A stretch of 64,000 bases of DNA from an uncultured Clostridia bacterium (lineage in GTDB: Bacteria > Bacillota > Clostridia > Oscillospirales > Acutalibacteraceae). The translations under genes were made by a program, and so were the position numbers. The DNA lies in contig CALWIZ010000002.1 of assembly GCA_944380885.1 (NCBI GenBank), positions 1 through 64,000 of the forward strand, read 5' to 3'. Shown here in pieces: positions 1 to 63,663 of the stretch. Below the pieces are notes generated by a model. That model was given only the letters and a program-made list of their open reading frames with translations. It had not been told where the DNA came from and ran no database searches. Within the stretch, counting starts at the first letter, position 1. Every line of letters starts with the position of its first letter.

Positions 1-3000
1 TTTTGAATATGCCTTTGCTCGGCTGGGATATATGGCAGGCAAACGACGGCGCGTATCCGACTATCAAAGGCAGCACCGCATATAACCCTCAAAATCCTGC
101 TGCTTATTCCGTCTGGGACGGCAGCGAGGATTATGAATTTGAGGGTTCGGGAACAGAGGCCGACCCGTATAAAATAACAAGTGCCGCCGAGCTTTACGGC
201 TTTGTTAAGAGATACTGCGGCGAGCAGCCGCTTGTTTCAGAGGGCAAGTATTTTGAACTTACGTCGGATATATATCTTAACGATGTTTTCAACAGTAACT
301 GGATGTATAATTCACCGCGCGAATGGGCGTTTCTGAATATCTGGACCATAAATGCCGGAGTGGAGGGCTTCCGCGGAAGCTTTGACGGAAACGGCTATAC
401 GGTATACGGTATGTATTATGCCAATCCGAACGAATACGCGGCGGTAATGGGTCTTATCCCGATGGCAAGCGGAAGCGCGTTCATATCAAATGTGAATATA
501 AGATATGCTTACATAAACAAAAGCAGCTATGAAGGAAATGTGGGCGCAATAGTCGGCTTTGTAAACAAAAACGCAGACGGCAGCGCGTCAGATGTTAAAA
601 TTTCAAAATGTGTTGCCGACAGCACTGTGGATTTCAGCGGTCTTACAAATTCATATGCAGGCGGCATTGTCGGTCCGGTACGCGAATCGGGAATAGCGGT
701 AGAATACTGCGGCTCTTCAGTAAAGTTTAACGATGAATATTCTCCTGCAGGCAAGGGCGGCGGCATACTTGCAAACGCAAATTCATATGCCGCTGAGAGC
801 GTAAGCATAAAAAATTCATATACGGTCGTGGGGTTTACTACAGGTCTACCCGGGACTATTGACGAGGCATCAATATCTGACGAAACGCTTTATTCGGCAA
901 ACAGCTGGTGGAAAAATAACACAAAGGTAAATATGACAGTCGTATCCTCCGGTAATATGCAGGGCGAAGAGGCAAAGTCTAATATGCCGCTGCTTGACTG
1001 GAGTATTTGGGAAGCTCACAGCGAAGATTATCCGATTATAAAGGGAAGTACCGCCGGAGACCGCAGTGTAGATAACAGCGATGGAAAAATAGGTGAGGTT
1101 TGGTCCGGTAAGACAGCCTCTAATTATGCGGGCGGAACAGGGGAAAAGACCGATCCGTATATTATAGAGACTCCGGAACAGCTTTACAAAATGATTAACG
1201 AGCACTGTGTTGCAGATGATCCGGAACCGGGAGCTTATTATGAGCTTGCTGCTGACATATATTTGAACGATATCTCAGAACAGAATTGGTATAATAACGG
1301 CACACCTAACAAGTGGTACGATATACAGCTTTTATCAGAAGATCAGGGCTTTAAGGGTAATCTGAACGGTAACGGTTATACAGTTTACGGTCTCTATTAT
1401 AACGACATTTCTACTATGGGCGGACTGATTCCGGTTATGGCCGGAAGCTCTACGGTAAAAGATCTTCATATACGCGAAGCATATATCGACGGACAGAAGA
1501 ACAGTAATATGTGTTATATCGGAAGCATTGCAGGTTATGTTCAGGCCGGAGCATCATCGAGCATTGTTCGCTGTTCGGCGCGCGGGATTGTTTTCGGCGA
1601 CGCAAACGGTGCAGGCGGACTTGTAGGCGCAATAAGTGCAGCGGGTCTTAAGATTACAAGCTGCTATTTTATCGGTGAGCTTCCGGGTCTTTCAAAATAT
1701 GAGGGAGGCTTTTATTCCGACATGTGGGGCAGCGTAATGGTAAATGACAGCTATACATCAGGCTGTCTCTCATTCTGCAAATCGTATACGATTGCCGACG
1801 GAATAAGGTATGCCACTGTTTCTCAAAGCGTAGCGTCAGATGCTACCGCAAGGGCCATTTCGGTAACTGTTGTTTCTCAGAATGAAATGCTCGGCGAAAA
1901 AGCTTTAAACACAATGCCGGAGCTTGATTGGGAGACAACATGGTGTGTAGTTGAAAATGATTATCCGCATTTGATAGTTCCGGAAAATCCGGATGCTGTA
2001 AACGGCATTCCCGGAGAGGTATGGAGCGGAAAATGCGCCGAGGAATATGCCGGAGGTTCAGGAACGGAAAACGACCCGTATCAGATAGCAACCGGAGAGC
2101 AGCTTTACAAATTAGTTACCGAGCATGTAATAAGCGGCGATAAACCGGCGTGGTATGTTATAACCGAAGATATCAGGCTGAACGATACCTCTGAAGAAAA
2201 CTGGTATGAAAAAGCAGAAAATAATCAATGGTATTATGCTTCAGGTGTAAACAGTGCGTTTGCCGGTCATATTGACGGTCAGGGACATATTGTTTCAGGA
2301 ATGTATATCAGTTCTGACGCGGCAAATATAAAAGGTTCACTTATTCCGGGCCTTGATACCGGCGCTATTGTCAAAAACATCGGCATAACAGACAGTTATG
2401 TTGATATGTCTATGACTAACAGTGAGGTTTACGGCGCCGGACTGGTCGCATATATTAAGTATTGGAGTGAAAACCTTGAAGCGGCCGAAGAAAATTATCC
2501 GGTTATAAGCAACTGTTTTGTAGACAGTTCCGTTATTATTAAGGCAAGAACCGCGGCCGGTATTGTCGGTGGTATACCGTCTCCGGTGAAAATTCAGAAT
2601 TGCTATGCAATATGCCGGCTGTCAAACGGCTACCGAGGCGGCGCGATAATAGGAGATGCTTGGAACAGCGGATCGATAATCGAAGACTGTTACGCCTGCA
2701 CTGAAAATTTTGATAAAATGGCAGATGGAAAGGGAGATGTGGTTTCCGGGGGAATAAGCTATACAGATGCATATGTGTTCGGTGCTACCGAGGGTGAAGT
2801 GCGGTTTGCCGCAATCGACGATATGCTCGGCAAATCGGCCGAAAAGGGCATGCCGGGGCTTGATTATGAAAATGTATGGCAAACTGTTGACAATTCTACA
2901 CCGGTTTTAAGGATTTTCTATCCGAAAATAAATAAAGGCACTAATGCTGACGGTCGGAAATCAACAGTTACGTTTGTTACGAATGTTGAAGGTTTATCTG

Positions 3001-3914
3001 TGAAGCCGATAACGGGAAACGTCGGCTCAGAGCTGAAGCTGCCGGCACCGCTCAGAAAAGGCTATAAATTCGAAGGCTGGTATGTGTATCCCGAAATACA
3101 GTGGAGATATACAGATGAATTTTTTCCATATACAAATCTTACGCTTTATGCTAATTGGGAACAGGATTCTATCATACAGAATTTTGAAACATACACAAAT
3201 TCAGAGTATGATATAGGTACAGACCACGAGTATTACAGACCCGGAGTCTTGGGATATACCGCCGATAATGTACACGGAGGCAATAAATCCATACATAGAA
3301 TAGGAAACAGCTCTTCCGAGGATCAATTTTTGATAAACTATGAGAATGAGCTGACTGTAGGCGGTGAGTATACTATGACCTTCTGGATTAAAATTAATAC
3401 TGAAAACGCCGATGGAAATTTATCTGTTGCATACAAAACGTGGCCGGATATAGCAGAGCGTGATAACGGCAGGGAGGCAATGGTGTCATTAAGCACGCTG
3501 AAACCCGGTGAATGGACAGAATGCACATATTCATTTGTGGCAAAATCAAAATGGATATCGTTCGTAACTGTCGGTGACGCAAGTATTTATTTTGATGATG
3601 TAATGATAATCAGAACAAGCGATAAAGTGCATTATGTAGAAAATTTATCCGATGAACCGGAAGATACACCGGCACAGAGACCGGCATATGAAGCACAGTT
3701 GCCGCAGGATCAAAATACCGGCGACAGCGGGGAATATTATGAAAATGACCAAAGCAATAGTATGACGGAAAACAGCAAAGAAGATAAAACTGTAAAAGAT
3801 GAATCAGGGTTCAATTATTGGCTGATTATAATACCGGTCGCTGCTGTTCTTATTGTTGCGGGTGCGGTGATTTCGGCTGTTGCTGTAAAAAAGAGAAAAA
3901 CAAAAGGAAAATGA
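1..3914 (+). CDS. Large repeat-containing surface protein, 5' end outside window
   Basis: Only the C-terminal 1303 residues are visible. The frame is open to the window edge and starts in mid-repeat, so the true start lies upstream. Three diverged copies of a module of about 300 residues (roughly 37-350, 365-655, 672-975) each open with a V-W-(S/D)-G...GG(T/S)G...DPY signature and close with a MP-x-LD-x-x-x-W signature. Each contains an N-G-x-G-Y-T-V-Y-G beta-helix-like segment, as in GLUG-type cell-surface proteins. An InlB B-repeat/Listeria-Bacteroides-type domain follows (about 988-1055; GYKFEGWY, LYANW), then a carbohydrate-binding-like beta-sandwich (about 1058-1215), an acidic linker, one membrane helix (about 1271-1293) and a basic tail, KKRKTKGK. 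There is no LPXTG motif, so it is anchored by the helix with the repeats outside the cell. An adhesin or polymer-binding role is inferred. Confidence 0.8.
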   Translation, partial: LNMPLLGWDIWQANDGAYPTIKGSTAYNPQNPAAYSVWDGSEDYEFEGSGTEADPYKITSAAELYGFVKRYCGEQPLVSEGKYFELTSDIYLNDVFNSNWMYNSPREWAFLNIWTINAGVEGFRGSFDGNGYTVYGMYYANPNEYAAVMGLIPMASGSAFISNVNIRYAYINKSSYEGNVGAIVGFVNKNADGSASDVKISKCVADSTVDFSGLTNSYAGGIVGPVRESGIAVEYCGSSVKFNDEYSPAGKGGGILANANSYAAESVSIKNSYTVVGFTTGLPGTIDEASISDETLYSANSWWKNNTKVNMTVVSSGNMQGEEAKSNMPLLDWSIWEAHSEDYPIIKGSTAGDRSVDNSDGKIGEVWSGKTASNYAGGTGEKTDPYIIETPEQLYKMINEHCVADDPEPGAYYELAADIYLNDISEQNWYNNGTPNKWYDIQLLSEDQGFKGNLNGNGYTVYGLYYNDISTMGGLIPVMAGSSTVKDLHIREAYIDGQKNSNMCYIGSIAGYVQAGASSSIVRCSARGIVFGDANGAGGLVGAISAAGLKITSCYFIGELPGLSKYEGGFYSDMWGSVMVNDSYTSGCLSFCKSYTIADGIRYATVSQSVASDATARAISVTVVSQNEMLGEKALNTMPELDWETTWCVVENDYPHLIVPENPDAVNGIPGEVWSGKCAEEYAGGSGTENDPYQIATGEQLYKLVTEHVISGDKPAWYVITEDIRLNDTSEENWYEKAENNQWYYASGVNSAFAGHIDGQGHIVSGMYISSDAANIKGSLIPGLDTGAIVKNIGITDSYVDMSMTNSEVYGAGLVAYIKYWSENLEAAEENYPVISNCFVDSSVIIKARTAAGIVGGIPSPVKIQNCYAICRLSNGYRGGAIIGDAWNSGSIIEDCYACTENFDKMADGKGDVVSGGISYTDAYVFGATEGEVRFAAIDDMLGKSAEKGMPGLDYENVWQTVDNSTPVLRIFYPKINKGTNADGRKSTVTFVTNVEGLSVKPITGNVGSELKLPAPLRKGYKFEGWYVYPEIQWRYTDEFFPYTNLTLYANWEQDSIIQNFETYTNSEYDIGTDHEYYRPGVLGYTADNVHGGNKSIHRIGNSSSEDQFLINYENELTVGGEYTMTFWIKINTENADGNLSVAYKTWPDIAERDNGREAMVSLSTLKPGEWTECTYSFVAKSKWISFVTVGDASIYFDDVMIIRTSDKVHYVENLSDEPEDTPAQRPAYEAQLPQDQNTGDSGEYYENDQSNSMTENSKEDKTVKDESGFNYWLIIIPVAAVLIVAGAVISAVAVKKRKTKGK

Positions 3915-16954: not shown

Positions 16955-16983
16955 TTGTTCTATCTTATTTACATTCATATAAT
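16955..16983 (+). promoter_or_regulatory. Sigma-A promoter of the dockerin protein gene
   Basis: TTGTTC and TATAAT with 17-base spacing, 75 bases before the start codon. The 300-base gap between the tRNA and this gene otherwise holds AT-rich sequence with no gene. Confidence 0.65.
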
Positions 16984-17057
16984 ATAATATTATAATTAAA
17001 AAGTAATCCGAGCGATTTAGAACGTCCGGAACAAAAAACGTTAAGGGAGAGCTTTCT

Positions 17058-20000
17058 ATGAGGTACAGAAAATTGCTTGCTTGGGCGCTAAGTCTCAGTA
17101 TCGCTGCCGGACTTTTTGCCGGCATACCGCTTTGCACGGCTGCGGCGGCCACATCGTCTGAAAGTATTGAGATACTGCTGCCTGACGCTTACGACAGCAT
17201 ATATCAATTCATGTATGAGTATCCGGATATTTTATGGGTGGAAAACGGAGGGAAAATAGGACTTTACTTTACCAACGAGAGGAAACTGGTCGGAGGCACA
17301 TGGGACTCGATTTGGAATTTCAGCGACGGATATGCGGTATTCACCGAAAACGGCTTACACGGAGTCGTGAGCAGCGACGCAAGGGTGGTTGTACCGGCTG
17401 AATGGGACGAAATTATTATCAACAGCGGCAATATCACCGTGCGCAAAAACGGGTTGATGGGGCTTGTCTCATCGGAGGACGGCAGCGTGCTCTTTGACCC
17501 TCAGGCGGAGGAGATAGAAAGCTTTGAAAACGGCTATGCGGCGGCGGTTAAAGGCGGAAAATACGGTATTATCTCGTCATCGGGCGAGCTTGCTGCCGGA
17601 TTTATATATGAAGACGCCCGTCCTTTCTCCGAAGGTCTCGCGCCGGTCAAAAACTCCTCGGGAAAATGGGGATACATAAACCTGTCGGGTGATACGGTTA
17701 TAGATTTTGTATATGACGCGGCGACCTGCTTTTCGGACGGTTCGGCGTATGTCGTACAGAACGGCAGAATGTTTGCTATTAACAAATCAGGAGCAAAATA
17801 TGCGGGCAGGAATGACCTTATTCCCGAATATGACGCTTCCGGCAGACTTGCCGCTCCTGATTTCGGCAGCTTCGGCGCCGCCTGCGTGCGCTTTTACGGC
17901 GAGAATAATTACCGTTACATAGATTCTGACGGAAACGCGCTTACCAATGCTCTGTTTATGAAAAACACCCCGCTTTCGGAAAACGGCACTGCGGTTCAGC
18001 GCACCGGCAGCGGATACGCTCTTTTAAAGGCTCAGAAAAGCGGCGCGTCGGTACAGGTGAAAACCCTGCTTGAATCGGACGACTTTATTTTTGAAAACTC
18101 ATACAGCGGGTTTGAACTGTATCAGAGCGGTATGCGCGTATACAACAGCGAAGGAACCGACATATTCGGCTGCGACGTATTTGATGTTATAAACGACAGC
18201 TATGACAGCGGCATTGTGACCGGAATAACAGCGGACGGTTATATTTCCGCGAAAACAGACGGCACAAAGCTGTATGAGGGCAGGTACGACAGGGCAGTGG
18301 ACGCTTTCGGCGACAATCTGCTTATCGCGTCGGAAGGTATGACGGTTCCGTATATTCTTTCGTCGGGCGGAAGTAAAACCTATCTCGGCTCAAGCAACGC
18401 CACAGCCTACGGAAGAGACGACTGGATAATGATAGTTGACGGTGACGGCAAATACGGCGCTTACCGGACTGACGGCACCTGCATATGCCCGGCGGAATAC
18501 GATATGGTGTCGGATTTAGGTGAAGGGAAACTCGGTTTCAGCAAGAATCAGACCGAAGGCTTTATAGACAAGGCTGACGGCACTGTTACAGACGGTTTCA
18601 GAAATGTTTACGGCTTTGATGACGGTATGGCGTGGGTTAATTACGGCAATCGTGCAGGAACGGTTGACGAAAACGGCGATACGGTAATAGAACCGCTTTA
18701 CTGGCCATATGACACAAACGGCAGCTTTACGGTATTTCAGCTCACCGGAGGAGTGACTGCGGTAAAAACCGGAAAGGACAGTCTGTATTACTTTATAGAC
18801 AAAAACGGAAATCGGCTTACAAATCCTGAATTTGCGTCGTTCAGTTTCATAAGTCAGGATTTGCTGATTTTCTCACGCGGCACGGGAAAATACGGACTCC
18901 TTACCGTGAGCAAAAGCACGCTTTCGGGAGAACCCGAATACATTGAGGCGAAAAGCAGTCTTGACAGGATATATGTCGGCTCTTCCGCGGTGATTGACGC
19001 GTCGGTGATGCCGGACAGCGCGGCGGATAAGAATGTCGTATTCGCTTCGGAGACACCGGAAATCGCTTCGGTTGACGCCGCGGGAAGGGTTACGGGAAAG
19101 GCGCCCGGCGCCGCGAGGATAAAGGTATCATCTGCGGCGGACAGCTCGGTTTTCGCCTATGTCGATATAACAGTAGCGGGAAGAACGATTCATCAGCCGG
19201 ACGAAGCCGTGCCGCTGTCCGCATGGGAGGAAGAGTTCTGGCTTGCCGAAGCCGCAATCAAGCAGCTCAGTCAGTCAGCCCCGGACTCGGCGCCCTTGGA
19301 CGTCAGCGGGCTTACATACGGTGATCTCGCCGAAATAACCGAAATCACGATACCTTATATTCCTGATAACGGGGACGGGACGGTTTATCATATACCTTCA
19401 ATTATAGGCGATTTTCTCAGTCTTACATATCTGAGAATAGGCTATGAGAATATGAACGGGACGTATTACAGTACCACAAATGTCTTTTCGCCTGTCACTG
19501 GAACTCTTCCGCCTGAAGCGGAATACCTTTCCGACCTCACGGTAGATATCAACTGCTATTACAGCTCGGGATATAACGAGAATATAATACGCACGGCAGG
19601 CGGCGGAATACCGGACGACAGGTTTTACGCCGCGCTGAGGGATAACATGGTATACGACCTGCCGGATCCCTCGTCGGGTCTGCTGAAGGGTATGGACGTT
19701 TACTATCTGAATGCCCAGAATTATTCGATTCAGAGCATTGAGGGAATAAGCCTGCTTGATCTGTCGGAAACATATGAGCTGGATCTCAGCTGCAACGCGA
19801 TTTCGGATATCTCGGAGCTTGCAAGGACAGATATTTCAAACGCGACGGTGGATCTGCGCTGCAACAGTCTTAACCTTGAAGACCCGAAGACGGTAACGGC
19901 AATATATCAGCTTGAACAGAAAGGCTGTACGGTTCTGACCTCGGATCAGGAATCTGTCTTTGTTTCATTTGATAATACGGCTTTGGATCCGGGACTCAGC

Positions 20001-22724
20001 CAAAATGTCGGTTATATAACCTATGCAGATGAAAGCGTTGATATCGGCAGCCTGACTGTGAGAACCGAAAACCCGAATATATGCACGGCGACTATAAACG
20101 GCAGATATATTCTGGCTCACGGGTTGACCGCCGGTCAGACCAAGCTGTACCTTTGCCTTGGCGATAAAGTGCTTTGCACACAGCCTGTAACGGTTCTGGA
20201 TGTTTCATACGTCACCACGCCGACGGTTACATATAATGTATGGGAATACGATCCGACCTCTGCCGAGGTTCAGTATGATATGGATTTTAACGATACTCTG
20301 TATTACAGAAAGCAGGGATCGTCTTACTGGACACCCGCGGATTACAGCCTTAAAATATACAGCAACGGAATTTATGAGTTCTGCGCCGAGAACATTTACG
20401 GCTACCGTTCGGAAATCGTTACGGTTGAGATAACCGAAATAAAATGTGCGCTGACCGCGGACGATTTTGCGGACAACGCACTGTATACCATACTGAAAAA
20501 CAATTATTATCCACTCTATGAGGATATGGTAATAGGATATCTTAACGCCTCCGCCTGCGGAATAACAGATCTCGGCGGAATCGAGCTGCTTGATTTTTCG
20601 GATGCTTCCTCGATTGATTTGGCGTATAACCGTATCTCCGATCTGACCCCTCTGGTCGAGAGCGGCATAAGAAACTGCTATATAGACCTGACCGGCAACT
20701 GCCTTGACGAGTCTGACCCGAAAACCGCGGCGGACATAGAAAAACTCATGGCTGACAATTACTATGTATATACCGATGAGCAGTTTTATAATGAGCAGAA
20801 AGTATGGCTTTCAAATTCGTTTCTTAAATTCCATTCAGACGAAGTCAATTATATTTATAACATTACCCTTTATGTATTTCCTGAGGAAATAAGGGATCAG
20901 ATCAGCGTGTCTGTCGATAACAGCGGTATAGTGGATTATAAAGTCAGAATAAACGAGATACGGATAGAGCCACTCGGCGTTACAGGCAAAACATATCTTC
21001 GGGTATATCTGGGCGATGAAGAAGTCGCGGCGCTTGAAATCATTTCTGACGATAAAACAAACCCGTTCGCGCCGGATGTGGAATACCAGGTTTCTGAATA
21101 TGACCAAACCTTTGCAACGCTTTACTATTCGCTGAATTATAACGAAACTATGTATTACAGGGCTCAGGGCGACAGCGAATGGATACCCGTCGAATATGAC
21201 ACATATATAGAATACAACGGTGTTTACGAGTTTTCGTATGTGAACGAATACGGCTACCGCTCGCGGATAACTACACTTGAAATAACCGGAATAAAGGAGC
21301 CTCTGACTTTGGAGGATATAGGCGACGAGGGATTATATAACGCTCTTGTGGAAAGATACGGAACTGACGGCAAGATTTACGATAATGTTTATCTCTATAC
21401 GTTGAATCTCGATTTTTCGGATATTCACAGTATTGATGCGCTCAGACTGTTTGATTTCAGCGATTTCAGCGGTACTGTCAGCCTCAGATACAACTATATA
21501 ACGGATATAAGCGTGCTTAAAGAGCTGAATCTGAAAAACTGCGATGTATATCTTGAAGGCAACCGCCTTAATCTCAATGATCCGGACACTCTCGCGGTCA
21601 TCAGACAGCTTGAGGAAAACGGATGCTATGTCAATACAGACAACCAGAATTTTGAGGGCACATATTTTGAGTTTGATAACCAATTCCTGATTATGGATAT
21701 CAACAATTTGTGGACCGATGAAATCACTTATAATGTCTATCCGTCTGGGGACAGGGACAAGGTCAGCTTTTCACTTGAAAAAGGCGGACTGTTCACGCTC
21801 AGCTACGGCGACGGGAAAATAACCATCAGCTTTACCGGAAATCTTGGGCAAGACACGATACTGGCATATGTAGGCGGCAAGCTGGTTGGAAGCACTGAAG
21901 TGACCGTTTACGACGAAGATGTTCTGCCCGACCCGATAGCCGATGTTGATTTGGACTCTTATGAGAATATAATTGTTACGCCCAACACGGATTATTATCC
22001 CAGCTACAACTCTTTTATGCTCAGGAATATCAAGGATAATGAGTGGCAGACAGCCGGCTTAAGAGGCTTTACCTTGGCTGCCGACATCGGCTCGGAAGAA
22101 ACATATGAGATAAAATATTCGTCGTTCAGCGGAGCCGAATCGAATGTAACTCGGTTTACAATTTGCAACGACGGCAAGTATATCTACATGACGTGCAACG
22201 GAGAAACGAAGCTACTTAAGTATATCGGAGACGTCAGCTCGCTTGTGCTTCCTTCCGAAATCGGCGGATATCCCCTGACAGCCGTCGGAGATTACGCCTT
22301 TACCTATACTAATCTGACCGAAATAATCATACCGGAAACGGTTGTGAGTCTGGGCAGCTGTTTGTTCCCGTATTCTTCTAATGTGATATCGCTGCCGGAC
22401 AGTCTTGCGGAAATAGATGAATATGCCTTTGTCAACGTATGGGAAAAATGCGTGGTTTACTGCACAAGGGATTGCGCCGTTTACGACTATATTCCGCAGA
22501 TAACGGAGAATAACTGTATTATCTGGACTGTGGGCGAGACCGGCGATATAAACGGCGACGGAGAGGTTGATATAAGAGACCTTATAAGGCTCAAAAAGCA
22601 GGCGGCAGGCACGGATACCGGTACCGCCGGCGATATTGACTCGGACGGCTATACCGACGCGTATGACCTCGCGCTGCTGAGAAAGTATTTTCTCGGTAAT
22701 GTATACAACATGAAAAAAGCGTAA
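17058..22724 (+). CDS. Secreted 1888-aa dockerin protein with WG, Big_2, leucine-rich and BspA modules
   Basis: A signal peptide (1-31, ending CTAAAA) is followed by a long WG-repeat-like beta region (about 40-630; for example KWGYINLSGD, KYGIISSSGE, KYGAYRTDGT). A Big_2 immunoglobulin-like domain follows (about 630-707; TPEIASVDAAGRVTGKAPG). Three related units each combine a short leucine-rich solenoid (LDLSCNAISDIS; IDLAYNRISDLT; VSLRYNYITDIS) with an Ig/FN3-like segment (about 720-1660). A BspA-like leucine-rich region (about 1714-1814) comes next, then a C-terminal type I dockerin with two calcium loops (DINGDGEVDIRDLI and DIDSDGYTDAYDLA, about 1828-1884). Dockerins bind cohesins, so it is probably attached to a scaffold or cell-surface cohesin. 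No catalytic domain is recognised. It is monocistronic, between its own promoter and a strong terminator. Confidence 0.88.
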   Translation: MRYRKLLAWALSLSIAAGLFAGIPLCTAAAATSSESIEILLPDAYDSIYQFMYEYPDILWVENGGKIGLYFTNERKLVGGTWDSIWNFSDGYAVFTENGLHGVVSSDARVVVPAEWDEIIINSGNITVRKNGLMGLVSSEDGSVLFDPQAEEIESFENGYAAAVKGGKYGIISSSGELAAGFIYEDARPFSEGLAPVKNSSGKWGYINLSGDTVIDFVYDAATCFSDGSAYVVQNGRMFAINKSGAKYAGRNDLIPEYDASGRLAAPDFGSFGAACVRFYGENNYRYIDSDGNALTNALFMKNTPLSENGTAVQRTGSGYALLKAQKSGASVQVKTLLESDDFIFENSYSGFELYQSGMRVYNSEGTDIFGCDVFDVINDSYDSGIVTGITADGYISAKTDGTKLYEGRYDRAVDAFGDNLLIASEGMTVPYILSSGGSKTYLGSSNATAYGRDDWIMIVDGDGKYGAYRTDGTCICPAEYDMVSDLGEGKLGFSKNQTEGFIDKADGTVTDGFRNVYGFDDGMAWVNYGNRAGTVDENGDTVIEPLYWPYDTNGSFTVFQLTGGVTAVKTGKDSLYYFIDKNGNRLTNPEFASFSFISQDLLIFSRGTGKYGLLTVSKSTLSGEPEYIEAKSSLDRIYVGSSAVIDASVMPDSAADKNVVFASETPEIASVDAAGRVTGKAPGAARIKVSSAADSSVFAYVDITVAGRTIHQPDEAVPLSAWEEEFWLAEAAIKQLSQSAPDSAPLDVSGLTYGDLAEITEITIPYIPDNGDGTVYHIPSIIGDFLSLTYLRIGYENMNGTYYSTTNVFSPVTGTLPPEAEYLSDLTVDINCYYSSGYNENIIRTAGGGIPDDRFYAALRDNMVYDLPDPSSGLLKGMDVYYLNAQNYSIQSIEGISLLDLSETYELDLSCNAISDISELARTDISNATVDLRCNSLNLEDPKTVTAIYQLEQKGCTVLTSDQESVFVSFDNTALDPGLSQNVGYITYADESVDIGSLTVRTENPNICTATINGRYILAHGLTAGQTKLYLCLGDKVLCTQPVTVLDVSYVTTPTVTYNVWEYDPTSAEVQYDMDFNDTLYYRKQGSSYWTPADYSLKIYSNGIYEFCAENIYGYRSEIVTVEITEIKCALTADDFADNALYTILKNNYYPLYEDMVIGYLNASACGITDLGGIELLDFSDASSIDLAYNRISDLTPLVESGIRNCYIDLTGNCLDESDPKTAADIEKLMADNYYVYTDEQFYNEQKVWLSNSFLKFHSDEVNYIYNITLYVFPEEIRDQISVSVDNSGIVDYKVRINEIRIEPLGVTGKTYLRVYLGDEEVAALEIISDDKTNPFAPDVEYQVSEYDQTFATLYYSLNYNETMYYRAQGDSEWIPVEYDTYIEYNGVYEFSYVNEYGYRSRITTLEITGIKEPLTLEDIGDEGLYNALVERYGTDGKIYDNVYLYTLNLDFSDIHSIDALRLFDFSDFSGTVSLRYNYITDISVLKELNLKNCDVYLEGNRLNLNDPDTLAVIRQLEENGCYVNTDNQNFEGTYFEFDNQFLIMDINNLWTDEITYNVYPSGDRDKVSFSLEKGGLFTLSYGDGKITISFTGNLGQDTILAYVGGKLVGSTEVTVYDEDVLPDPIADVDLDSYENIIVTPNTDYYPSYNSFMLRNIKDNEWQTAGLRGFTLAADIGSEETYEIKYSSFSGAESNVTRFTICNDGKYIYMTCNGETKLLKYIGDVSSLVLPSEIGGYPLTAVGDYAFTYTNLTEIIIPETVVSLGSCLFPYSSNVISLPDSLAEIDEYAFVNVWEKCVVYCTRDCAVYDYIPQITENNCIIWTVGETGDINGDGEVDIRDLIRLKKQAAGTDTGTAGDIDSDGYTDAYDLALLRKYFLGNVYNMKKA

Positions 22725-22734
22725 GGCTCACCTG

Positions 22735-22771
22735 CCGGAGAGCGTCTTTTCGGACGTTCTCCGGTTTTTAA
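22735..22771 (+). terminator. Terminator of the dockerin protein gene
   Basis: CCGGAGAGCGTC / GACGTTCTCCGG 12-bp stem with TTTTCG loop and T-tract. Confidence 0.9.
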
Positions 22772-32899: not shown

Positions 32900-33179
32900 A
32901 CTATGGTACGCTGTGTAAGTATGGCGTGAAACATGCGTTGATGCGGGAGGTGGCCGACCACGAGTCGGGAAATTTCCGCGGAGTATGTCCGATTTTAAAC
33001 CGGGCGAAAGAACAAGGAGTACATAAAGGATCTTGCGGCCTTTGTGTGCAGCGGCGGAGCGATCCGCTGTCCGGAATTGTCTGTGACCCCAGCAATTGCC
33101 GGTTTTATAATGTGCCGTAAAGAAATACACGGCAGGTTGTAAGTTTTGCCCGCCAACTATTTAAGGAGGCGAATTTCAC
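32900..33179 (+). promoter_or_regulatory. Roughly 280-nt S10-operon leader, containing a Cys-rich open frame
   Basis: A long untranslated leader before rpsJ with several GC-rich inverted repeats (for example GTGGCCGACCAC at 32950-32961). S10-operon leaders are known in some bacteria to bind L4 and reduce expression; whether this one does is inference. The plus strand also holds an open frame (32890-33120) whose later part has a CGLC motif and two more Cys, with ATG 32941 as a possible start but no ribosome binding site. Confidence 0.5.
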
Positions 33180-62184: not shown

Positions 62185-63663
62185 ATGACAAACGCAAGTA
62201 TATACAGGGATATCGCCGCGCGCACCGGCGGAGATATTTATATCGGCATAGTAGGGCCCGTGAGAACCGGAAAATCCACATTTATAAAGCAGTTTATGGA
62301 TAAACTCGTGCTGCCTAATATCTCCGGCGACTACCAGAAGGAGCGCGCCAACGACGAGCTGCCGCAGTCCTCCTCCGGAAGAACTATAATGACCACCGAG
62401 CCGAAGTTCATACCAGAAAAGGGCGTTCAGATAAATATAGACGATTCCGCTTCAATGAATGTGCGGCTTATAGATTGCGTAGGGTATATTGTACCGAGCG
62501 CTTTAGGCTACATAGAGGGCGACCAGCCGCGTATGGTTATGACGCCGTGGTTTGACGAGCCGGTGCCCTTTAATATGGCGGCGGAAATAGGTACCAGAAA
62601 GGTTATAAACGAGCATTCGACGATAGGGCTTGTAATAACGACCGACGGAAGTATCAGCGATATTCCGAGAAGCGAGTACGAGGAAGCCGAGGAACGGGTA
62701 ATAGATGAGCTTAAGGCTATAAACAAGCCGTTTGTCATACTGCTCAACTGTATGTACCCCGAGACCGAGGAGGCGGCGGCAACCGCGGCGAGACTTACTG
62801 AAAAATACGGTATTCCGGTTCAGCCGGTAAACTGTCTTGAGCTTACCGAGGAAGATATAAAGGGGATAATCTCGCGCGTGCTGTTTGAGTTCCCGATTAA
62901 GGAAATCTGCATAAACTTCCCGCGATGGATTAACTCTCTGCCGCTTGACCACTGGCTGAGAAACGACCTTATTACCTCTATAAAGGAGTCGGCTTCGGGA
63001 CTTCATCATATAAGGGATATCTACCGCTTTGAAACGGCGTTTTCGGACAGTGAAAATGTGGAGGGCGCAAAGGTGGAGTCAATCGACCTCGGCACCGGAA
63101 GCGCCTCGGTAATGATAAAAATAGGCAGCGCGCTGTTTTATAAGGTGCTTGCGGAAACTACGGGACTTGTCATAAACGACGAGCAGGAGCTTATGGAAAA
63201 CATAAGAGAGCTTGCCGCTATGAAGAAGGAATACACGAAGGTCAAGGGCGCGCTCGACGAGGTGGAGGCCACCGGATACGGCATAATAATGCCTGAAATA
63301 GAGGATTTAAAGCTCGAAGAGCCTGAGATTATGAAGCAGGGCGGACGCTACGGGGTAAGGCTCCGCGCGTCGGCGCCGTCAATACACCTAATGAAGGCCG
63401 ATATAACCACCGAGGTAAGCCCGATAGTCGGCAGCGAGAAGCAGTCGGAAGATCTTGTTATGTATCTGCTCAGCGAATTTGAAGAGGACCCGGTAAAAAT
63501 TTGGGACTCAAATATTTTCGGAAAATCGCTGCACGAGCTTGTAAACGAGGGACTGCACACAAAGCTGTCCCGTATGCCGGCTGACGCGAGAATGAGGATA
63601 CAGGAAACCATAGAGCGGGTAATAAACGAGGGCTGCAACGGACTTGTATGCATAATACTCTGA
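62185..63663 (+). CDS. spoIVA: Stage IV sporulation protein A
   Basis: 492 residues; the ATPase that polymerises on the mother-cell face of the forespore to form the coat basement layer. Walker A GPVRTGKST is at 24-32. TIGLVITTDGSISDIPRSEY and the C-terminal region ending GCNGLVCIIL, which docks onto SpoVM-marked membrane, are family-typical. GGAGG precedes ATG. Monocistronic, with a sigma-E-like promoter and a terminator. Confidence 0.97.
   Translation: MTNASIYRDIAARTGGDIYIGIVGPVRTGKSTFIKQFMDKLVLPNISGDYQKERANDELPQSSSGRTIMTTEPKFIPEKGVQINIDDSASMNVRLIDCVGYIVPSALGYIEGDQPRMVMTPWFDEPVPFNMAAEIGTRKVINEHSTIGLVITTDGSISDIPRSEYEEAEERVIDELKAINKPFVILLNCMYPETEEAAATAARLTEKYGIPVQPVNCLELTEEDIKGIISRVLFEFPIKEICINFPRWINSLPLDHWLRNDLITSIKESASGLHHIRDIYRFETAFSDSENVEGAKVESIDLGTGSASVMIKIGSALFYKVLAETTGLVINDEQELMENIRELAAMKKEYTKVKGALDEVEATGYGIIMPEIEDLKLEEPEIMKQGGRYGVRLRASAPSIHLMKADITTEVSPIVGSEKQSEDLVMYLLSEFEEDPVKIWDSNIFGKSLHELVNEGLHTKLSRMPADARMRIQETIERVINEGCNGLVCIIL

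Follow-up and report, generated by a model that had tools for sequence, protein, structure and literature searches.

The gene at positions 17058 to 22724 of the window, i.e., the whole 64,000-nucleotide stretch of DNA that was analysed, raises the question of why a protein of 1888 residues that looks non-enzymatic should end in a dockerin, and onto what it would dock. The answer that we favour, with moderate confidence, is that it is a calcium-dependent, non-covalently displayed, non-enzymatic arm, plugged into a 171-residue membrane cohesin protein of the same genome and serving in adhesion or ligand binding.

The open reading frame (ORF) starts with ATG and encodes 1888 amino acids on the forward strand without an internal stop. 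The features of the gene and its flanks, with the basis of each in brackets, are as follows.

16968..16996, + strand: promoter-like pair TTTACA-17-TATAAT, 11/12 matches (pattern match only)
17043..17049, + strand: RBS-like AAGGGAG, 8 nt 5' of the ATG (direct reading)
17058..22724, + strand: whole gene, multimodular protein of 1888 aa, probably secreted (ORF and translation)
17058..17147, + strand: signal-peptide-like N terminus, residues 1-30, with a basic start, hydrophobic core and AAA (by eye and hydropathy)
17148..18932, + strand: WG-repeat region, residues 31-625, probably beta-propeller(s) (Pfam PF14903, AlphaFold2, Foldseek/VIA rows)
18933..19178, + strand: Big_2 Ig-like domain, residues 626-707 (PF02368)
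19179..19613, + strand: residues 708-852, without family assignment, possibly a leucine-rich repeat (LRR) cap (61% identity to the G031 ortholog)
19614..20441, + strand: LRR-Ig unit 1, residues 853-1128 (self-alignment; weak LRR_8)
20442..21293, + strand: LRR-Ig unit 2, residues 1129-1412 (self-alignment, z 49 to unit 1)
21294..22172, + strand: LRR-Ig unit 3, residues 1413-1705 (self-alignment, z 32 to unit 2 and 24 to unit 1)
22173..22535, + strand: BspA-type LRR_5 segment, residues 1706-1826 (PF13306; 4oju match)
22536..22700, + strand: type I dockerin, residues 1827-1881, with the recognition-like half DIRDLIRLKK first (PF00404)
22734..22765, + strand: terminator-like stem, 14 pairs (8 G-C), then a T-run (pattern match)

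Because RBS-like, promoter-like and terminator-like elements flank the ORF, the gene is probably a single-gene unit; promoter-like pairs in the region numbered 15 against 11.1 expected in shuffles (sd 3.6) and terminator-like stems 8 against 7.3 (sd 3.3), in neither case a clear excess. Upstream, on the opposite strand, lies a tRNA-Ala, and the genes downstream, which were named from their translations and ORF order, are presumably rpsL, rpsG, fusA and tuf. A chance ORF was ruled out by an ortholog of 49% identity in another genome (G031), which has the same downstream genes. Prophage cargo was also rejected: of the 10 ORFs between 33559 and 58924 that were compared with PHROGs, just 2 gave a match, both of which follow secY, and the other 8 gave none. 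Elsewhere in the window, a 1303-aa frame at its edge (3-3914) carries a Listeria-Bacteroides (Flg_new) repeat and is another possible surface protein, and an S10-Clostridia ribosomal leader RNA (32930-33007) precedes a series of genes with secY (42396) and rpoA (47284) among them. A spoIVA gene is found at 62185-63663; the organism may therefore form endospores.

The layout proposed in the first-pass annotation, with WG repeats, Big_2, three LRR-Ig units, a BspA-type LRR and a C-terminal type I dockerin in one ORF, was borne out. By Pfam, WG_beta_rep (PF14903) scored 118.6 bits in 4 stretches (cut-off 25.6), Big_2 (PF02368) 42.4 bits at residues 640-692 (cut-off 22.8), LRR_5/BspA (PF13306) 34.1 bits at residues 1742-1793 (cut-off 27.7) and Dockerin_1 (PF00404) 36.6 bits at residues 1829-1879 (cut-off 22.9). 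Direct reading of the dockerin revealed two complete calcium-loop motifs, DINGDGEVDIRD and DIDSDGYTDAYD. LRR_8 reached 22 bits at residues 887-920 and LRR_4 11.1, both below their cut-offs of 27, with the orthologs giving at most 24.9; the single NCBIfam line, LRR adhesin HupY/LrrG, stood at 11.7 bits, far below its cut-off of 1250. Searches against solved structures matched the dockerin, the BspA-type LRR part (4oju at residues 1723-1793, E 1.8e-6) and, once, the Big_2 region (7quz, residues 635-708).

Some match to the protein was found in 68 of 99 genomes (its own and 98 relatives), with at most 4 candidates scored per genome for nearly all of them, so that where a genome has two relatives one may have been missed. 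Full-length relatives occur in G031 and G024 alone, the other matches being to single modules, and the full-length gene, present in 3 of the 99 genomes including its own, is rare. The G031 ortholog is 49% identical over residues 1-1606 and, in another frame, 45% over residues 1600-1887; the gene is split over the two frames at residue 1607 (L072:9199, L106:12824), which may be a real break or an assembly error. CALWDJ010000014.1 is no second witness to this split because it is the same 53,843-base contig as that of G031, identical over the gene. By module, identity to G031 is 79% (41/52) in the dockerin, 77% in the signal peptide, 61% in residues 708-852 and lowest, 28%, in the first Ig part. 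The G024 ortholog is 32% identical over residues 1-859 and 31% over residues 1165-1768, and its dockerin (34.9 bits) is 31% identical (17/55), with the halves in reverse order. WG, Big_2 and dockerin are kept in both orthologs; LRR_5 is above cut-off in G024, and the corresponding part of G031 aligns without a Pfam match. Four loci on viral contigs, none of them an ortholog, match along the WG region (query ranges up to residue 714), and three of the four were entered into an alignment. The IMG/VR contigs L108 (L108:4890-5960) and L110 encode a WG-repeat protein with a lipoprotein-like start, which in L108 precedes genes that we take to resemble phage tail genes.

The internal duplication of the LRR-Ig unit, which the annotation had also proposed, was confirmed by pairwise local alignment, with z scores of 49 (units 1 and 2), 24 (1 and 3) and 32 (2 and 3) above 300 shuffles, compared to |z| ≤2 in nine control comparisons with other regions of the protein (100 shuffles each). 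Each unit consists of a short LRR block, a closing stretch with DP-x-T and then Ig-like strands. The DP-x-T motif, described earlier as shared, is indeed common to all three units (DPKT 942, DPKT 1220 and DPDT 1508), but it is not strictly conserved, the G031 ortholog having DQAT, DTET and DPDT at these sites, and was on this ground discarded as a special signature. Given this variation and its place at the close of every LRR block, the stretch may be a capping-type segment. In the G024 ortholog, units 1 and 2 both map to residues 843-1144 and unit 3 to residues 1146-1422, which indicates two LRR-Ig units in this protein and thus a unit number that varies between species; the LRR_5 part of this ortholog extends further, with 77.4 bits in 2 stretches.

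AlphaFold2 models were built on alignments of 5 and 3 rows and had mean pLDDT values of 55.6 and 52.0. High confidence was confined to the first part of the WG region (pLDDT ~78-94 over residues ~78-267, with repeated strand triplets), with poorer patches beyond; parts of LRR-Ig units 1-3 were fair, and pLDDT was <50 over residues ~593-907, ~1249-1314 and most of ~1531-1888. Residues 708-852, which fall in the first of these stretches, are possibly an LRR cap. Compared to structures by Foldseek and VIA-align, the WG-region model gave a best Z of 8.6 (rmsd 7.2, 248 residues), where a Z of 7-8 can mean a mere common arrangement. The rows are, as we take them, mostly beta-propeller proteins, and the modelled region is probably one or more beta-propellers. 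For the C-terminal-half model, the matches were Ig-like rods from S-layer proteins, adhesin necks and receptors; as the Foldseek TM-scores were low, the structure matches were used as class only (propeller, Ig-like rod); rows for human receptor and S-layer structures were not read as homology. No enzyme domain was found in the protein by Pfam, NCBIfam, solved-structure or fold search, nor any carbohydrate-active enzyme or CBM by Pfam and NCBIfam, and the earlier description of the cargo as non-catalytic thus holds by sequence and fold, with the three stretches of pLDDT <50, a large part of the protein, modelled poorly. Its further suggestion of a surface sensor found no support, there being no signalling domain among the Pfam and NCBIfam matches, and the host binding that it also mentioned would be one candidate role of the arm.

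The annotation had made its docking idea depend on a cohesin elsewhere in the genome, and three cohesin ORFs are present there, together with 14 dockerin ORFs and two sortases. The three cohesin matches lie in three separate ORFs; an ORF with more than one cohesin was looked for without success in this genome, which is 97% complete in 49 contigs, so that one could have been missed. The strongest match (68.8 bits) is in the 171-aa ORF (G000:C6:31045-31560; L018:7046-7561), in which a single cohesin follows an N-terminal hydrophobic segment. A 507-aa ORF (L019) has a signal-peptide-like start as its sole hydrophobic segment and one cohesin of 27.4-31.3 bits, and a 509-aa ORF (L020) has a cohesin of 20.3 (below cut-off) to 28.6 bits, a cadherin-like domain and a C-terminal hydrophobic segment. 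Across the genus, cohesins were detected in 65 of 70 genomes and dockerins in 69 of 70, with 216 and 605 matches in all, and the two counts rise together (Spearman 0.66, relatedness not corrected).

From 30 cohesin loci, we read 17 short cohesins in which an N-terminal hydrophobic segment and a linker are followed by one cohesin and the end of the protein, one of them (G101) being lipoprotein-like. The alignment of these 17 does not include one more short ORF, which lacks the membrane segment (G036, L101), and for L077, L083, L084 and L100 it uses a start codon inside the frame. A profile of these 17 sequences gave a near full-length match (frame ≤239 aa) in at least 32 of the 70 genomes, including the genome under study (G000), G031 and G024, with 15 of these carriers counted from profile matches alone. 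Compared to the rest, dockerins were more numerous in 26 strict carriers (median 10.5 vs 3, p 0.004; E ≤1e-35, chosen after the list was seen) and in all 32 listed carriers (median 6 vs 3, p 0.03), with relatedness not corrected in either comparison. Ten of the 24 genomes with ≥10 dockerins were not counted as carriers, and the link between short cohesin and dockerin number is a weak one.

Six of the 14 dockerin proteins have a recognised enzyme family, i.e., two C39 peptidases with RHS repeats, a nuclease/phosphatase-like protein, a GH16 protein, a transglutaminase-like protein and an alpha-L-fucosidase; the remaining 8 are the 1888-aa protein, one with a sub-threshold SH3 match and six without any other Pfam match (E 0.001). 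Of the two proteins with a C39 peptidase and RHS repeats, L022 (L022:2-5707, an ORF that runs off its contig) has its dockerin within the RHS stretch, and L021 (L021:3724-6801), whose RHS part is shorter, has it close to the end of that part. A search of the genome for GH9 gave no match, with 2 of 14 controls matched, and one for GH48 gave none either, but there none of the controls matched.

Thirteen of the 14 dockerins, that of the 1888-aa protein included, carry one half resembling D-I-x-D-[LF]-[IV]-x-x-K-K, placed first in 8 and second in 5; with a narrower pattern, the number is 12. The sole exception is the symmetric SLID-type dockerin of the SH3-like protein (L020:204-3568). The gene for this protein adjoins that for the cohesin with a cadherin-like domain and C-terminal membrane segment (L020), possibly a second, separate plug-socket pair, and G031 also has a SLID-type symmetric dockerin (L153). 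In a set of 44 dockerins, made up of all 14 from this genome and 30 of 52 matches from G024, G031 and G060, a relaxed pattern located the half first in 20, second in 16, in both positions in 2 and in neither in 6; a stricter one left 15 of 44 without it, and since the relaxed pattern was chosen after the sequences were seen, the counts are descriptive. Judged by their sequences, the dockerins of these four genomes look like permuted one-sided dockerins. Because the half is common to 13 of 14, the 1888-aa arm may be in competition with the enzymes for a single socket. One-sidedness fits a single-binding mode, for which R. flavefaciens is a known case; the same paper cites another in C. thermocellum, for dockerins that bring individual enzymes to the cell surface (PMC5429695). 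A limited literature search on binding modes returned no description of permuted dockerin halves.

According to the explanation that we favour, the gene product would be a secreted arm with a WG propeller-like head, Big_2, LRR-Ig units as spacer or binding parts, a BspA-type LRR and the dockerin. After export, the dockerin would fold around calcium and plug into the single cohesin of the membrane-tethered 171-aa protein; the arm would then stand on the cell surface, with a host, substrate or neighbour cell as candidate ligand, and enzymes with the same dockerin half would use the same socket. The modules, the triplication, the cohesins and dockerins of the genome, the common dockerin half and the genus-conserved short cohesin were observed; from them we infer export, pairing, surface position and a role in adhesion. 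The pairing with the 171-aa cohesin is proposed because of the strength of its match, its conservation in the genus and the common dockerin half. Further support comes from the short cohesins of G031 and G024, the sole other genomes with a full-length relative, and from the dockerin, which is the best-kept module to G031 and is kept in G024. In addition, the protein has no LPxTG motif anywhere, and its most hydrophobic 19-residue windows are in the N terminus (mean hydropathy 1.84), with none above 1.32 after residue 40; the behaviour of R. bromii Doc1 and Doc2 in an EDTA wash, described below, is a supporting precedent. The explanation is weakened by the 507-aa and 509-aa cohesin ORFs, each a possible partner, by the two sortases, which imply other display routes in the genome, by the rarity of the gene (3 of 99 genomes), by the modest relation of dockerin number to short cohesin, and by the reversed halves and low identity of the G024 dockerin.

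Docking could instead take place on the secreted 507-aa cohesin protein, or on a foreign cohesin, giving a released complex or a biofilm matrix rather than an arm on the cell's own membrane. The signal-peptide-like start, lone hydrophobic segment and single cohesin of the 507-aa protein would suit such a partner, but its cohesin match is weak, and the half common to 13 dockerins fits the strong, genus-wide short cohesin better; we therefore regard this route as unlikely. Rather more doubtful is that the dockerin is an orphan that docks on no cohesin, with the LRR/Ig or WG modules retaining the protein, unless it is just secreted. Against this stand the two complete calcium-loop motifs, the conservation of the dockerin to G031 above all other modules and the joint rise, uncorrected for relatedness, of cohesin and dockerin counts, whereas for it can be cited R. 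albus 7, with 90 dockerin proteins and 1 cohesin, and strain 8, with 62 and 0 (PMC4081043), as well as the many genomes of the genus in which dockerins greatly outnumber cohesins (605 vs 216 matches over all 70 genomes). It is highly improbable, in our judgement, that a catalytic or lectin domain is hidden in residues ~593-907 or most of ~1531-1888, which would make this an enzyme-targeting dockerin after all. Both stretches were modelled below pLDDT 50, and the first includes residues 708-852, which have no assignment yet are 61% identical to G031; however, Pfam and NCBIfam gave no enzyme family, enzyme-named PDB chains match solely the dockerin or the Big_2 region (635-708), and the fold rows are propeller proteins and Ig-like rods, with peptidase rows confined to the N-terminal, beta-rich portion of the model.

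Beyond the docking of the arm on the 171-aa protein, the latter is a possible general dockerin socket. More tentatively, in a reading that we hold possible and would not call probable, the genus may share a non-covalent display system in which a tiny, N-terminally tethered cohesin is a one-size socket and unrelated secreted proteins plug in via one-sided dockerins with the recognition half in either position, a sortase-like role outside polysaccharide breakdown; the cargo would then comprise proteases with RHS repeats, transglutaminase, nuclease-like proteins, glycosidases and the 1888-aa adhesion arm. If a general small-cohesin socket is real, an uncultured genus would use calcium-dependent plugging to display a mixed cargo, and the large surplus of dockerins over cohesins in some genomes would be easier to understand. 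We consider the mini-cohesin socket with its one-sided, permuted dockerins a more interesting lead than the 1888-aa protein itself.

Among known systems, the R. bromii amylosome proteins Doc1 (signal peptide, two LRRs, dockerin) and Doc2 (signal peptide, LRR, dockerin) have no enzyme domain listed in PMC9112005; like them, the 1888-aa protein has a signal peptide (by eye and hydropathy), LRRs and a C-terminal dockerin, and no enzyme domain was found in it. At 549 and 471 aa, Doc1 and Doc2 are far shorter than 1888 aa, and no WG, Big_2 or LRR-Ig triplication is listed for them. From PBS to EDTA wash of galactose-grown R. bromii, peptide matches went from 2 to 16.5 for Doc1 and from 2 to 13.5 for Doc2, based on one PBS sample and the mean of two EDTA samples; because two amylases without cohesin or dockerin also rise with EDTA in the same table, EDTA release alone is no proof of docking (PMC9112005). 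Unlike the system here, the R. bromii scaffoldins Sca2 and Sca5 are described as encoding sortase signals, and R. bromii Sas20 differs from the 1888-aa protein in its starch binding.

R. flavefaciens FD-1 is reported to have 28 LRR modules in dockerin proteins, and some of its dockerins were suggested to structure the cell surface (PMC2930009); its 223 dockerin proteins and 27 cohesins (PMC4081043) compare with 14 dockerins and 3 cohesins here. While the first-pass annotation was right in placing a non-enzyme cargo on a dockerin in a genome with cohesins, the surprise that it implied is thus weaker, as non-enzymatic LRR-dockerin proteins are already documented in Ruminococcus. Single-cohesin proteins of Lachnoclostridium sp. 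MSJ-17 likewise combine one cohesin with a membrane helix in a host presumed non-cellulolytic, but the helix there is described as C-terminal, whereas the segment here is N-terminal and the protein just 171 aa (PMC11557425). The Limousia mucinolysome is also a cohesin-dockerin system not aimed at cellulose; it is described as an enzyme complex for mucin (PMC12997984), while here a recognised enzyme domain is present in 6 of the 14 dockerin proteins. Our literature search found no report of a dockerin with WG repeats, nor of a dockerin with BspA and leucine-rich repeats. Altogether, LRR-dockerin non-enzymes are already known in Ruminococcus and the layout of the 1888-aa protein is apparently undescribed; it is a clear, very large example of a little-studied class of non-enzyme dockerin proteins, with a concrete candidate partner.
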